This document shows, piece after piece, positions 21,659 to 27,991 of a DNA stretch of 49,450 nucleotides. The notes below the pieces were generated by a model. The model made no database searches. It was not told the origin of the DNA and saw only the letters and a program-made list of their open reading frames with translations. How positions within the stretch are numbered: position 1 is the stretch's first letter; each line of letters begins with the position of its first letter. Source of the stretch: Chlamydiota bacterium (lineage in GTDB: Bacteria > Auribacterota > Tritonobacteria > UBA1439); NCBI GenBank assembly GCA_012729785.1, contig JAAYCL010000026.1:1-49450 (forward strand). Direction: 5' to 3'. A program made the translations under genes and the position numbers.

Positions 21659-22453
21659 CTACGCCCGATCGGCCGCCGGCCCCGCGGGGGAGAGGGCGCG
21701 GATCAGCTCGTCGTGGATGCGGGAGTTCGTGGCGGCGATCTCCGGCACAAACGGGTCGAACTGCCGCCCCGAGAAGTCCGTGGCGAGCCCCCCCGCCTCG
21801 CGCAGGATCAAAACGCCTGCCGCGGTGTCCCATGGCTTGAGTTCCCGTTCCCAGAACCCGTCGAACCGCCCCGCCGCGACGTAGCAGATGTCGAGCGCGG
21901 CGGAACCGTCGCGCCGCACCCCCTGCGCGAGCAGCGAGACGCGCTCGAATACCCGAAAGGTTTCCCCGGGGTTCTCCACGAGGCGGTACGGGAAACCGGT
22001 GCAGAGGAGGCTTCCCTCGAGCGCGGAAACGGGGGAGACGCGGATCGGTGAGCCGTTCAGGGCGGCGCCCTTGCCCTTCTCGGCGGTGAAGAGCTCGTCG
22101 CGGATCGGGTCGCAGACCGCCCCCGCGAGGAGCTCCCCGCCGCCCAGCAGCCCCACGGAGGCGCAGACGCACGGGTATGCGTGCGTGAAGTTGACGGTGC
22201 CGTCCATCGGGTCGACGACCCAGAGATAGTCGGAGCGGCGCGGCGCCTGCGCCGACTCCTCGGTGAGGATGTCGTGGGAGGGGAACGCCCGTTCGAGGAC
22301 CTGGAGGGCGGCGTGCTCGGCGGCGAGGTCCGTCTCCGTGACCGGGTTCATCCTGGCCTTGAAGCGCACCCCGGCGGGCCTGCCGAAGTCCCGTTTGATG
22401 ACCGCCGCCGCCGCCCGCGCCGCGGCGGCCGCCGTCTCCAGGAACGAACTCAT
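21659..22453 (-). CDS. Inositol monophosphatase family protein
   Basis: This 264-residue protein carries the family's three metal-binding motifs: TEES (Glu65/66), DPMDGTVNF (81-89, the DPIDGTxN motif) and the C-terminal WDTAAG. These enzymes are Mg-dependent, Li-sensitive sugar- or inositol-phosphate phosphatases; some act in NAD or aromatic metabolism, so the substrate stays open. The ATG at 22453 overlaps the M3 peptidase stop (ATGA), so the two are translated together. After its stop the strand carries the exeA promoter. Confidence 0.9.
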   Translation of the reverse strand: MSSFLETAAAAARAAAAVIKRDFGRPAGVRFKARMNPVTETDLAAEHAALQVLERAFPSHDILTEESAQAPRRSDYLWVVDPMDGTVNFTHAYPCVCASVGLLGGGELLAGAVCDPIRDELFTAEKGKGAALNGSPIRVSPVSALEGSLLCTGFPYRLVENPGETFRVFERVSLLAQGVRRDGSAALDICYVAAGRFDGFWERELKPWDTAAGVLILREAGGLATDFSGRQFDPFVPEIAATNSRIHDELIRALSPAGPAADRA

Positions 22454-24042
22454 CGCGTCTCCGCCATCGTCCGAAGGAACGGACCCGGGTCGAGGCCGCG
22501 ATAGCCGAGGTCTCGCGCCAGCTCGTCGCCGTTGCGCTCCTGGCCGTACGCCCAGAGCGACTTCAGGAACGCGCCCGCAGCGGGGGAGGCGAACCACCGC
22601 GCGCCGAATCTCGCCCGGAGCGTCTCCAAGAGCTGCGCCTTCAGGAACCAGGCGCGGAGGTAGTCCGCCGCGTAGTAGTAGTCGTCCACGTCGCTCAGGT
22701 AGCGCGCGGCGTCGTTGTCGTCGAGGGGGAAGCCGTAGGCGCGGGAGAGGATCGTCCGGTAGCGCTGCTTCGGGTTCGGAACCCCCGCGTGAAGCTCCCG
22801 CTCGTAGAGGATCTTGGCCGCGTAGCGCCGCGCGAAATAGATCCGCGAGAAGCGCCGGAACCGCAGGTACGACTCGAGCTCTTTCGGCGGGAAGGCGGTC
22901 CGCTCCCCGACCCACGCCGGATCGTCCATCAGCTCCTCGAACAGGAAGGCGTACGCCTCTGTCACCGTGTTGTCGCCGAGCTGCGCGAATTCGAAATGGT
23001 CGGTGTTGGTATTGGCGAAATGCTGGGCGTGCCCCATCTCGTGGAGGAGCGTCTCGTAGTCCGGGACCCCCCCGGAGGGCTTGACGGTGAGACGGATATC
23101 CTCCGGGACCTTGAGGCCGAAGCAGGCGGCGCGCGGGTTCTTCTTCGGCAACGGTTCGTCGTGGATCAGGATGTTGCGCTGGCCCTTCAGGTCGATCCCC
23201 AGCCCCGCGAGCGTGGCGGAGACGGAGGGCACCAGCCCCTCCGCGGGGAAGCAGGCGCGGTACCGGTCCAGATGGAAGAGGCGCGCGACGTCGCAGCGCC
23301 GGAACCGCTCCGGCGGGACGCCCATGAACTCCCGCGTCACCGCGCCCAGGAGGGCGGCGTACGCCGTTTCGGTTGCCGAGAGGATCTGTTCGCACTGCAG
23401 GGAGAGCGCCGCGAGCGAGAAGCCGCGAAGCTCCTCGCTCAGGGCGTTGTACGAGTCGAAACCGAGCCGGCGGGCGAGCCGGCGGCTTTGTTCCCCCTTC
23501 TCGAGCTGGATCGGCTCGATCGTTTCGAGGACCGGGAGGGCGGCGTCGGAGATCCGCTGGCGCTTCGCCCGATCCGCCTCCACAGCGAGGAGAACGGGGA
23601 GCTGCGGGAACGGGACCTTCGCGCCGTCCAGCTCAATCTCCGCTCCGGACTCGGTGTTGCGGATCGCGTCGCTGAGGGGCGCCACCGCCTTGTCGACATG
23701 CTCGGCGAGCAGGTAGCGGCGCAGGTACCGCAGCGCCTTCTTCTCGCGCGGGTCCGCGGCATCGTCGGCCGCCTTCCCGACCGCCGCGATCGCCTCCGGG
23801 CTGAACAGCCTCTCGTGCCCCGCGTAGGTCTGCGCGATATCCACCGGGTCGCCGTAGACGCGGTTCTCCCAGGCGCGGAGTCCCTGCTCGAGGATCAGCG
23901 CCTCCGCCTCGAGGCGCATGTCGGCGATGACGAAGCGCATCCCCCCTCCTGTCGTCTGCGCCGGGGCGGCGGCGGGCGCCGTCGTGTCCGCCCCCTCCGC
24001 CGCCGCGCCGAACGCGAGAATTGCGATGGGGATTTTCAGCAT
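22450..24042 (-). CDS. M3-family oligoendopeptidase-like metallopeptidase
   Basis: This zinc peptidase of 530 residues (from ATG 24042) has the HExxH motif as HEMGH (334-338) and a downstream TEAYAFLFEE whose Glu363 fits the third ligand. This layout fits the M3/thimet-oligopeptidase clan. Two starts compete. 24042 gives a hydrophobic N-terminus (about residues 3-15) like a signal peptide, but no Shine-Dalgarno, and its -10 box lies only 7 bases away. 23940 gives a 496-residue cytoplasmic protein and has AGGAGGGGGG directly before ATG. The stop overlaps the inositol-phosphatase start. M3 enzymes clip short peptides. Confidence 0.82.
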   Translation of the reverse strand: MLKIPIAILAFGAAAEGADTTAPAAAPAQTTGGGMRFVIADMRLEAEALILEQGLRAWENRVYGDPVDIAQTYAGHERLFSPEAIAAVGKAADDAADPREKKALRYLRRYLLAEHVDKAVAPLSDAIRNTESGAEIELDGAKVPFPQLPVLLAVEADRAKRQRISDAALPVLETIEPIQLEKGEQSRRLARRLGFDSYNALSEELRGFSLAALSLQCEQILSATETAYAALLGAVTREFMGVPPERFRRCDVARLFHLDRYRACFPAEGLVPSVSATLAGLGIDLKGQRNILIHDEPLPKKNPRAACFGLKVPEDIRLTVKPSGGVPDYETLLHEMGHAQHFANTNTDHFEFAQLGDNTVTEAYAFLFEELMDDPAWVGERTAFPPKELESYLRFRRFSRIYFARRYAAKILYERELHAGVPNPKQRYRTILSRAYGFPLDDNDAARYLSDVDDYYYAADYLRAWFLKAQLLETLRARFGARWFASPAAGAFLKSLWAYGQERNGDELARDLGYRGLDPGPFLRTMAETR

Positions 24043-24049
24043 GGGCGGT

Positions 24050-24057
24050 ATTATAAT
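24050..24057. promoter_or_regulatory. Bidirectional -10 (TATAAT on both strands)
   Basis: ATTATAAT reads as TATAAT in both directions: minus strand at 24050-24055 for the M3 gene, plus strand at 24052-24057 for the DUF4404 gene. The minus copy ends only 7 bases before the possible ATG at 24042. The best minus-strand -35 match is weak (TACCCA with a 17-base spacer). Confidence 0.45.
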
Positions 24058-24150
24058 GGCTTGCGCGCCCCGTGGGTAATCATTTCTGCGCGGCGGGCCG
24101 CCGCGCGGAGGATATGGTACCCTTGGGAGGCGCCCGGAAAGGGGCCTCGT

Positions 24151-24423
24151 ATGCACCACCAGCATCTTCGCGCCATGATCCGAGAGCTCCGCGCCGAACT
24201 CGCGAACGCCGCGCCGGTCGACGCCGATCTCCGCGAACGCATCCGGGGGATGCTGGACGAGATCGAGGGGCTGCTCGAGGGCGGCGGGGAGATCGCGGCG
24301 CAGCAGCACCGGCAGCTTGTCGAGCGTCTTCGGGAATCCGCTCGGCAGTTCGAGGAGTCGCACCTGCCGCTGACGATGGCCGTCGGCAGGCTGATCGACG
24401 CCCTCAGCGCCATCGGCATCTAG
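24151..24423 (+). CDS. DUF4404 family protein
   Basis: This is a 90-residue, helical, charged protein (ELRAELANAAPVDADLRERIRGMLDEIE...). Its spacing and Pro/Ala elements match DUF4404 proteins, whose function is unknown. The terminal segment LTMAVGRLIDALSAIGI is typical of that family. ATG 24151 is preceded by a weak GGGG motif. It is divergent from the M3 peptidase gene and shares the 24050-24057 promoter region. Confidence 0.68.
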   Translation: MHHQHLRAMIRELRAELANAAPVDADLRERIRGMLDEIEGLLEGGGEIAAQQHRQLVERLRESARQFEESHLPLTMAVGRLIDALSAIGI

Positions 24424-24746: not shown

Positions 24747-26570
24747 TCAGCGCAGCGCGCTGTTCGCCTCGCGGAGTTCGTGTGCTATCGAAACGAGCGC
24801 GTTCCGGATGAACGCCGGGGTGTGCGCGGGGGCGCCGGACGCCTCGACCTGAAGCCCCTCCTCGACGCGGCCGAGGAAACCGGAGAGCGCCTCGTCCGGG
24901 AGCGGGGAGGGGGAGGCGGCCCACCGCTTCAGATCCCGGAGCAGCGGCTGGTCGGGGCGATAGTCGCCCCCCTCCATGAACGGGTTGACGGGCGGCGGGT
25001 TGCCGGCGAACTGGAACCCCTTCAGCGCGACGATGAGCGGCGTGAAGTCGCGCCCGGTCCTGAGCCGGGGGAACTGGTACTCGATGACCTTGGACTGTAT
25101 CTCCCCGTCCGGCGAGTGGAGATTCTCGCGCGAGAAGTAGAGCCCGCCCCGGGGGTCCTCGATCTCCCGGTTGTGGATGCGCGTCTCCCGCACGGCGCCG
25201 CTCCGGTCCCGCCGGAGATCCCCGCCGAGGAGCAGCAGGCAGAGCAGGTCGGCGCGACGCGGCGGAGGCCCGCTGCGAAGCCCCGGGGGGATCTCGATCG
25301 AGAGGTGGAGGCTGTGGGGCCGCACCCCGCAGAACGCAGCCGCCTCACGGATGAGGGAGGCGAGGAGGCGCGGGTCGTTCGTCACCGGCATGGACAGGTC
25401 GCCGGCGATCTTCAGGCGCCCGAGCGCGTACTCGAGGAATCCGCGGCACCGCTCCCCGGGGGGGCAGGCCGCCCGATGCGTGTCCACGTGCATCCCGAGC
25501 TTCCAGCCGCGCCTGAGCAGGTCGAAGTCGGCGGTCCAGTAAAAGCCGTCGAACAGGGGATCCATCCCCGGCGCGGCGCCGATCGCCGCGGCGCCGAGCG
25601 GGCTGAACTCGAGCTCCGCGCCGAGCGGCGCGCTCCCCGGCTGCGCCTCGCGCACGGCGAGCCGGCAGGTCGCCGCCGCATCGTTTGCGTCGAAGAGGCG
25701 CGCCGCGACGGCGATGGCCCGGACGGCGTAGTCGAGGTACTCCCGTCCTTCCCGCAGCGTCCCGCAGCCGTCCCGCTCGATGAGCCGGTCGAGCTCGCCG
25801 CCGCTTCGATTCAGACAGTCGAGGGCGGCATGGGCGCTCGACGCGTGCGCGTAGAACCCCTCCGGGGCGGCGACCAGATCGCCGAAGCGCGACAGGATCC
25901 GCGCCTCCGTGTGGCTGAAGACGATCTGCCGGGCCGTCAGGCGCAGGTACGCGGCCGCGTACGGGCGGGCCGGGTGGTCGGGCCTCCACAGCGGGGCGAG
26001 CGTGGGGATGCCGGGATGGCGCAGGGCGCGGCGTATCTCCTCGCGGCCCGGCGGCCTTCCGCCGCGCGCGGCGGCGCACAGCTCCTCGATCGTCCCTCCG
26101 AGCAGTTCCCGCAGGACGACCATCTCCTCGGGGCCGGGGCGTCTCCCCGTCAAACGCGCGGCCTCCTCCTCGAGGATCTCGTCGACGAGGACCGCGGCGT
26201 CCGCGGCGGCGGGCTCCCCGTCGCCGAGGTAGCGCCCGATCCGATCCGGATTTGCCACGTAGGCGTGCGCGCGACGGGTCTCCCCGCCCCGCACGCAGGT
26301 CACCGGCAGGCGGCGGTACATGTCCCCCTCCGCCTCGTACGCGTCGAGCGCCGCGAGCTGCGCGCGGGGGATCCCCTCCACGAGCCACCCCCTCACCGTC
26401 TCCCCCTCCTGCGGGACGATGTAGGCGTAGCCGTACGGCGGCGTGACGCGCCGGTAGCCGCGGAGGACGCACGGCCTCTTCGGGAAGATCCTCCCGGTGA
26501 GGGCGCGCATCGTGCGGTCGTAGGCCAGCGTGCCGTACACGAACAGGTCGACCGGGCCGTCGTCGCTCAT
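24747..26570 (-). CDS. Fusion of AIG2/GGCT-like cyclotransferase and glutamine-synthetase-like domain
   Basis: This is a 607-residue protein with no signal peptide. Residues about 6-115 look like a gamma-glutamylcyclotransferase/AIG2 fold: VYGTL at 11-15 and [13 protein letters not shown] with the probable catalytic Glu79. Residues about 310-530 show three blocks recalling glutamine-synthetase-like amidoligases: GAELEF (318-323), HLSIE (423-427) and IEYQFPR (497-503). The centre (120-310) is helical and unassigned. Cyclotransferase and amidoligase domains are known partners in Gln/Glu-amide pathways, but I know of no named family with this exact fusion. It might make and break a gamma-glutamyl or peptide amide, which is inference. 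The start has a TATACT box 10 bases away and no Shine-Dalgarno. Confidence 0.68.
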
Positions 26571-26580
26571 CTCGAAGACG

Positions 26581-26609
26581 AGTATACCCGATGCGGTCCG
26601 CGGCAGAAA
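26581..26609 (-). promoter_or_regulatory. Promoter of the cyclotransferase-amidoligase fusion
   Basis: On the minus strand TTTCTG (plus 26604-26609), a 17-base spacer and TATACT (plus 26581-26586) are followed after only 10 bases by ATG 26570. The mRNA leader would be about 3-4 bases. Confidence 0.5.
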
Positions 26610-26613
26610 GCGA

Positions 26614-26641
26614 TTGTGGCCCCGGGAGGAACTGCTATACT
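26614..26641 (+). promoter_or_regulatory. Promoter of the malic enzyme gene
   Basis: TTGTGG (26614-26619), a 16-base spacer and TATACT (26636-26641) with extended TGc. It is back to back with the promoter of the divergent gene. The GGGAGGAGGG ribosome site of the malic enzyme lies at 26682-26691. Confidence 0.5.
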
Positions 26642-26695
26642 GGCCCGGAGGGGCTGGGGGCAGCCGCCTGCCCGCCCCCGCGGGAGGAGGGACGG

Positions 26696-27991
26696 ATGAC
26701 CACGGAAAAAGAGCGTGAAGCGCTCGACTACCACCGCCTCGGCCGGAGGGGCAAGATCGAGGTCGTTCCCACCAAACCGTGCCGGACGCAGAAGGATCTT
26801 TCGCTCGCCTACACCCCGGGCGTGGCGGTTCCGAGCCTCGCCATCGCCGCCTCCCCCGACGAGGCCTTCTCCCTGACCGCGCGGGGGAACCTCGTCGCGG
26901 TCGTCTCGAACGGAACGGCGGTGCTCGGTCTCGGCGACATCGGGGCGCTCGCGAGCAAGCCGGTGATGGAGGGGAAGGCGGTCCTCTTCAAGCGGTTCGC
27001 CGACATCGACGCCTTCGACATCGAGGTGAACTCCAGGGACGTCGATGAGCTCATCGGCTTCATCAAGCTCCTGGAGCCGACGTTCGGGGGGATCAATCTG
27101 GAGGATATCAAGGCCCCCGACTGCTTCCCGATCGAGGAGGCGTGCGAGCGCGACATGCGGATACCGGTCTTCCACGACGACCAGCACGGCACGGCGATCA
27201 TCTCGGGCGCCGCGCTCCTCAACGCGCTCGAGATCGCGGGCAAGAGGATCGAGGAGTGCCGGGTGGTCTTCAGCGGCGCGGGCGCGGCCGGCCTCGCCTG
27301 CGCGCGGTACTACCTCAGCCTGGGGGTGAAGAAGGAGAACCTCGTCCTCTCCGACATCGGGGGGATCCTGCACGAGGGGCGCACGGAGGGGGTGAACCGG
27401 TACCTACAGCCGTTCTTGGCCAAGACGAAGGCGCGCACCCTCGCCGAGGCGATGCGGGGCGCCGACGTCTTCATGGGGGTCTCCGCCAAGAACCTCGTCA
27501 CCCCGGAGATGGTGCGGTCGATGAACCGCGCCCCGGTCGTCTTCGCCATGGCGAACCCGGACCCCGAGATCACCTACCAGGACGCCAAATCGGCGAGGCC
27601 CGACGTCATCGTCGCGACCGGGCGGTCGGACTTCCCGAATCAGGTCAACAACGTCCTCGGGTTCCCGTTCATCTTCCGCGGCGCGCTCGACGTCCGGGCC
27701 ACGCACATCAACGAGGCGATGAAGCATGCCGCCACCCGGGCGCTCGCGGCGCTTGCGCGCGAGGAGGTCGTCGACGAGGTGCGGGAGGCGTACGGGGGGG
27801 AAACGTTCTCCTTCGGGCCCGACTACATCATCCCCAAACCGTTCGACCCGCGCGCGCTCCTGCGGGTGGCCCCGCAGGTGGCGCGGGCGGCGATGGAGAG
27901 CGGCGTGGCGCAGGCGCCGATCGCGGACTGGGCCGCCTACGACAGGGAACTCGAGGAACGGCTGAACGTCATCCGGGCGCGGGCGCGCTGA
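26696..27991 (+). CDS. Malic enzyme (NAD(P)-dependent)
   Basis: This cytoplasmic enzyme oxidatively decarboxylates malate to pyruvate. The 431-residue protein has the family's YTPGVA signature ([14 protein letters not shown]), [38 protein letters not shown] and the Rossmann segment [22 protein letters not shown] is also diagnostic. The length fits the compact bacterial form without a phosphotransacetylase domain. ATG 26696 has a strong GGGAGGAGGG upstream. NAD versus NADP use is not decided. The gene stands alone, with its own promoter and a convergent neighbour. Confidence 0.95.

Follow-up and report, generated by a model that had tools for sequence, protein, structure and literature searches.

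The window, a 49,450-nucleotide stretch of contig JAAYCL010000026.1, carries on its minus strand at 24747-26570 a single open reading frame (ORF) that starts with ATG and has a product of 607 residues. This product fuses an N-terminal gamma-glutamyl cyclotransferase domain of the GGACT/AIG2 type to a putative amidoligase-like C-terminal domain, with a helical region in between. The locus has the following features:

24747..26570, minus strand: coding sequence of the 607-residue fusion protein, stop included (ORF, full-length orthologues, alignments, purifying selection)
26247..26546, minus strand: GGACT/AIG2 gamma-glutamyl cyclotransferase domain, residues 9-108 (PF06094, 3jub alignment, Foldseek)
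26334-26336, minus strand: codon of the catalytic Glu, E79, of the same domain, whose YGTL motif is residues 12-15
25656..26246, minus strand: central all-helical region, residues 109-305, of no known family (AlphaFold2 secondary structure)
24996..25655, minus strand: putative GS-superfamily amidoligase-like core, residues 306-525 (invariance, predicted strands, Foldseek, hhalign), with the motifs ExE (E319/E321), WK..HVD.H (356-365), FLE (E380), HSLH (H419/H422) and EYQFPR (E497/R502)
24750..24995, minus strand: C-terminal tail of three helices, residues 526-607 (AlphaFold2 model; local pLDDT is high from about residue 555 onwards)
26591..27991, plus strand: malic enzyme gene, divergent from the fusion gene (PF00390/PF03949)

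An earlier sequence-only reading had proposed a single polypeptide, and all the motifs that it named do lie in the one 607-residue ORF: VYGTL (residues 11-15) and LDAYE (75-79), then GAELEF (317-322), HLSIE (422-426) and IEYQFPR (496-502). The gene is real and not a product of chance, because the protein is conserved from end to end, its key motif residues are invariant and its dN/dS is low (full-length values of ∼0.11 and ∼0.08 for the two closest pairs with unsaturated synonymous sites, and ∼0.1 in both domains for the closest pairs). An overlapping ORF of 639 residues on the plus strand (24780-26699) was rejected as a GC-rich shadow. Upstream of the start codon, at a distance of 11-16 bases on the minus strand (window 26571-26600), stands a TATACT that would fit a leaderless transcript; a sigma-70 promoter scan called no promoter.

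Full-length fused relatives were found by translated search in 8 of 44 genomes of Auribacterota, the window's own phylum, where they are 35-53% identical to the window protein over the full length; in a second phylum an alignment-based search found them in 14 of 82 genomes. Among them are relatives in the metagenome-assembled genomes JAPLCW010000094.1 (Candidatus Auribacterota) and JAQUPF010000008.1. In a tree of GGACT domains, whose small number of columns calls for caution, the fused domains form one group (support 94/87) that is not nested among the GGACTs linked to Amidoligase_2 genes; this points to one, separate fusion event, apparently behind all the fused forms. No viral or plasmid relative of the fusion protein was found, and a viral or plasmid origin of the fusion was dropped for that reason. 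At one locus (L022:10918-12783, G015) a single in-frame TAG splits the fusion ORF into ORFs of ∼254 and ∼358 residues; this may be a sequencing error, a pseudogene or two genes.

The N-terminal domain is well placed in its family. Residues 9-108 match PF06094 (GGACT) with an E-value of 2.8e-18 and 67.1 bits against a gathering threshold of 22.8, PF06094 matches all eight members of our first family alignment, and a search with the family profile brings up AIG2-like structures from plants and GGACT structures from mammals. Alignment to human GGACT (PDB 3jub) sets E79 on Glu82, the catalytic acid/base of the human enzyme (PMC7022552); the two proteins share the domain family, the YGxL motif, this Glu and its D-x-[YF]-E context. 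Y12, G13, L15 and E79 are invariant in all 19 relatives that have the domain; a loss of the Glu from orthologues, which would have told against the earlier reading, is thus not seen. In a Foldseek search with the full-length model, GGCT-fold structures come first (E-values down to 2.9e-07), and the match at rank 13 (chloroplast-type transit peptide part) is a GGCT-like match to the N-terminus. The GGCT/AIG2 assignment and the probable catalytic Glu of the sequence-only reading are both borne out, and we regard the fusion and a GGACT domain with its catalytic Glu as established, with cyclotransferase activity predicted from sequence. Known GGACTs are stand-alone proteins of ∼150 residues, whereas the domain here is the N-terminal fifth of a 607-residue chain.

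Residues 109-607 gave no Pfam or NCBIfam family with a credible score in the members tested. The central ∼190 residues (about 109-305), which the earlier reading had left unassigned, are indeed without a family; they are predicted to be all-helical, with conserved alignment positions that include Y204, Y208, F218, E222, S245 and N254. For the C-terminal domain, no match to the Amidoligase_2 model (PF12224) was found in the window's own genome or its phylum, and hmmscan of the members tested gave none to it and none to COOH-NH2_lig (PF14395), GCS2 (PF04107) or Pup_ligase (PF03136). Matches to Fucose_iso_N2, CysA_C_terminal and other Pfam families were weak, scattered over one or two members and taken as chance. 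PHROG 23382, a 67-position family of unknown function, matched 14 of the 21 members weakly (best E-value 0.0007) and was dropped.

The C-terminal region is the most strongly conserved part of the protein. E319, E321, S323, W356, K357, D363, H365, E380, G384 and R385 are identical in 21/21 members, as are H419, S420, D455, R464, E497, F500 and R502, which gives the domain an invariant set of acids and bases. Aligned by eye with Amidoligase_2 members, its motifs follow the Amidoligase_2 order FGxEIE / WK..D.S / E[IV]VSP / HVH / VEFR. The weight that had been put on HLSIE shifts by a few residues: one member has Q in place of H422, and Q is the usual residue at 426, but the invariant H419 stands just before (P-H-S-L-H).

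Profile-profile comparison, which had been suggested as a check, gave weak support for kinship with Amidoligase_2, here represented by 62 sequences (7 bacterial, 55 from viral contigs). The hhalign score of the C-terminal profile against this set was 27.5 (P 0.005), in a register that sets GAELEF...WKL on GIEIE...WKV and in which the first block alone aligns. Nineteen unrelated families scored 10.6-18.4 and a reversed profile 12.9, while 60 block shuffles reached at most 25.1 (mean 17.8, sd 3.3). The other ligase families scored within or near this null range (COOH-NH2_lig 21.8, GCS2 20.0, Pup_ligase 12.3). The positive control, Amidoligase_2 against GCS2, scored 31.4, but the test has low power, because some pairs believed to be related also fail it (Amidoligase_2 against Pup ligase, 19.8). 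The signal needed a deep and cleanly trimmed Amidoligase_2 alignment; a few badly trimmed sequences gave none, positive controls included.

Confident AlphaFold2 models were obtained for the full protein (pLDDT 77.5, pTM 0.73) and for residues 122-607 (pLDDT 84.1, pTM 0.87). Strands are predicted at 316-322, 361-363, 378-383, 418-427 and 493-500, and the conserved motifs fall on or beside them; the predicted placing of acid, His and Arg residues on a sheet resembles that in the PafA/GS superfamily. Foldseek was run against a set of 350,542 chains. Outside the GGACT matches, the full model matched the Pup ligase PafA best (E-value 0.05, probability 0.87, 386 columns); the C-terminal model had an Azotobacter glutamine synthetase at rank 2 (E-value 0.27) and the GS homologue PA5508 (4hpp) at rank 4 (E-value 0.43). 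That GS-superfamily members (4bjr, 9n4x, 4hpp) rank high in both searches is suggestive. No Foldseek E-value for the C-terminal domain was below 0.05 and none is significant alone; TM-scores to GS-type structures are ∼0.2 and identities ∼8-13%, in which the domain is unlike the superfamily. A viral structure library, with at least one protein named amidoligase enzyme in it, gave nothing significant for this domain.

From motif order, leading structures and the profile match, the C-terminal half is probably a GS-type amidoligase, as had been proposed, but as one that Pfam and NCBIfam do not match. By eye its motifs follow the Amidoligase_2 order ExE, WK..D, E, HxH, E[FY]; it shares with that family the partnership with GGACT and a weak in-register profile match, and differs in the long helical region before the core and the helical tail after it. 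Because the PF12224 model fails to recognise the domain, it is better not classed as Amidoligase_2, although it may well work like one.

The partnership with GGACT can be seen independently of the fusion. We gathered Amidoligase_2 loci without regard to GGACT and searched them with a GGACT profile from the window's family: a GGACT gene was nearby in 24 of 64 non-redundant loci, in 23 of them read in the same direction as the amidoligase and mostly within 550 bases, against 0 of 60 Pup-ligase/GCS2 control loci, whose flanks were shorter. In Arthrobacter phage genomes AIG2 and amidoligase genes are adjacent (PMC5513430), and a single region of phage UFV-P2 encodes AIG2 and an ATP-grasp enzyme together with COOH-NH2_lig and Amidoligase_2 (PMC3890496). 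In phages and bacteria the Amidoligase_2 and AIG2/GGACT partners are separate genes, whereas in the window they are fused. A functional link between cyclotransferase and amidoligase activities is likely because of the 24 linked loci. The loci L077 and L081 (G311) have Amidoligase_2 matches in large open frames of 983 and 809 residues, which are possibly other fusions.

By a modest balance we favour the fusion protein being a bifunctional gamma-glutamyl-amide synthetase/cyclotransferase. The C-terminal domain, most likely of GS/amidoligase fold, would ligate an amine to the side-chain carboxylate of glutamate, or of a glutamyl group, at the expense of ATP and with Mg, and so form a gamma-glutamyl amide; the N-terminal GGACT would free the amine again, the gamma-glutamyl group cyclising within the molecule and leaving as 5-oxoproline. 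A gamma-glutamyl group would thus be put on and taken off in one chain, for protection, storage or turnover of the amine.

The two domains are inferred to share one bond as their target; a scheme in which they are as described yet do not act on it in turn, with the GGACT clearing wrong or excess gamma-glutamyl products or using gamma-glutamyl compounds from outside, we consider unlikely. GGACT-family enzymes do use free small gamma-glutamyl amines (PMC7022552), the sequence has no sign of channelling, and in the tree most Amidoligase_2-linked GGACTs lie farther from the fused domains than the stand-alone enzymes do; the separate neighbouring genes at Amidoligase_2 loci, on the other hand, favour a shared substrate. 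It is improbable that the C-terminal domain is not of GS type at all, being a new fold or unrelated enzyme with a coincidental likeness in motifs. Such a reading would fit the lack of a sequence family and the weak Foldseek and profile scores, but in the searches with both models GS-superfamily structures lead the non-GGACT matches, the order of the motifs agrees with their placement on strands, and the GGACT-amidoligase linkage is independent.

In all three loci of the window's family (f1, with L018 and L019 included) a malic enzyme gene is divergent from the fusion gene. In 10/10 loci of the second phylum an HMGL-type synthase gene, citrate/homocitrate/isopropylmalate-synthase-like with all NCBIfam scores below cut-off, immediately precedes the fusion gene; a small globin-sensor-like (RsbR-N-like) gene follows the fusion gene in eight loci, and genes for an isocitrate-type dehydrogenase and the aconitase AcnA are near it in several. 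This context hints at the supply of 2-oxoglutarate and glutamate. At L061-L070 the synthase, fusion, RsbR-N-like, dehydrogenase and aconitase genes form a conserved cluster, with RuvAB/YebC/queA genes on its other side in the opposite orientation. In the window, a large minus-strand ORF at 22450-24363 has a metallopeptidase-like HExxH motif (LLHEMGHAQHF) and no Pfam family above cut-off.

Guanidino kinases are members of the GS superfamily. Least likely is that the C-terminal domain has the GS fold and is a phosphotransferase or other non-ligase (a guanidino-type kinase, or a deamidase like Dop, the depupylase homologous to PafA in the same superfamily; PMC3511204) or a sensor of glutamate/2-oxoglutarate that regulates the carbon-metabolism operon beside it, as the second-phylum neighbours could suggest, since fusion to GGACT argues for gamma-glutamyl amide chemistry and the invariance of the presumed catalytic acids, His and Arg in 21/21 members speaks against a dead sensor. 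A role as stand-in for normal glutamine synthetase was rejected, PF00120 being over cut-off in 24 of 25 genomes searched, carriers and non-carriers alike. Some Auribacterota have giant ORFs with tandem glutamine-synthetase units, at L223:5248-18528(-) (4427 residues), L224:789-9104(+) (2772 residues) and L225:191-8530(-) (2780 residues). The first has six Gln-synt_N + Gln-synt_C units by Pfam and the others three each by Gln-synt_C matches; the units are spaced by ∼550 residues, all contain NGSGMHVHQSL, and they follow an N-terminus that resembles a signal peptide. A chain of six units, as in L223, equals one GS ring.

Known systems offer partial parallels. In butirosin biosynthesis the ligase BtrJ attaches a gamma-glutamyl group that the AIG2-family cyclotransferase BtrG later removes; these are two separate proteins, and the ligase is an ATP-grasp enzyme. 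Trypanothione synthetase-amidase and glutathionylspermidine synthetase/amidase combine an ATP-grasp ligase with a cysteine amidase that hydrolyses. The window's protein would likewise have a ligase and a cleaving domain per polypeptide, the former putative and the latter matched by PF06094; unlike in those enzymes, its ligase would be of GS type and its cleavage would be cyclisation to 5-oxoproline. Opposing ligase and bond-cleaving domains in one chain are documented for both enzymes (PMC2784880, PMC6272389), and the making and breaking of an amide by one protein has a precedent in trypanothione synthetase-amidase. The description of the pathway as unusual is therefore fair for the pairing of GGACT with amidoligase, but a synthetase and a hydrolase in one chain are known (PMC2784880).

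Only tentatively, and at somewhat less than even chances, do we propose that a new branch of the GS superfamily begins with the C-terminal domain, within a self-contained gamma-glutamyl-amide synthetase/cyclotransferase that in one phylum is tied to a citrate/isocitrate (2-oxoglutarate-forming) cluster. The domain adds a family that is unrecognised and unnamed in current libraries. In many phages and bacteria amidoligase and AIG2/GGACT genes are neighbours; a conserved fusion from non-viral genomes ties the two predicted activities together physically and gives one protein to express and assay.
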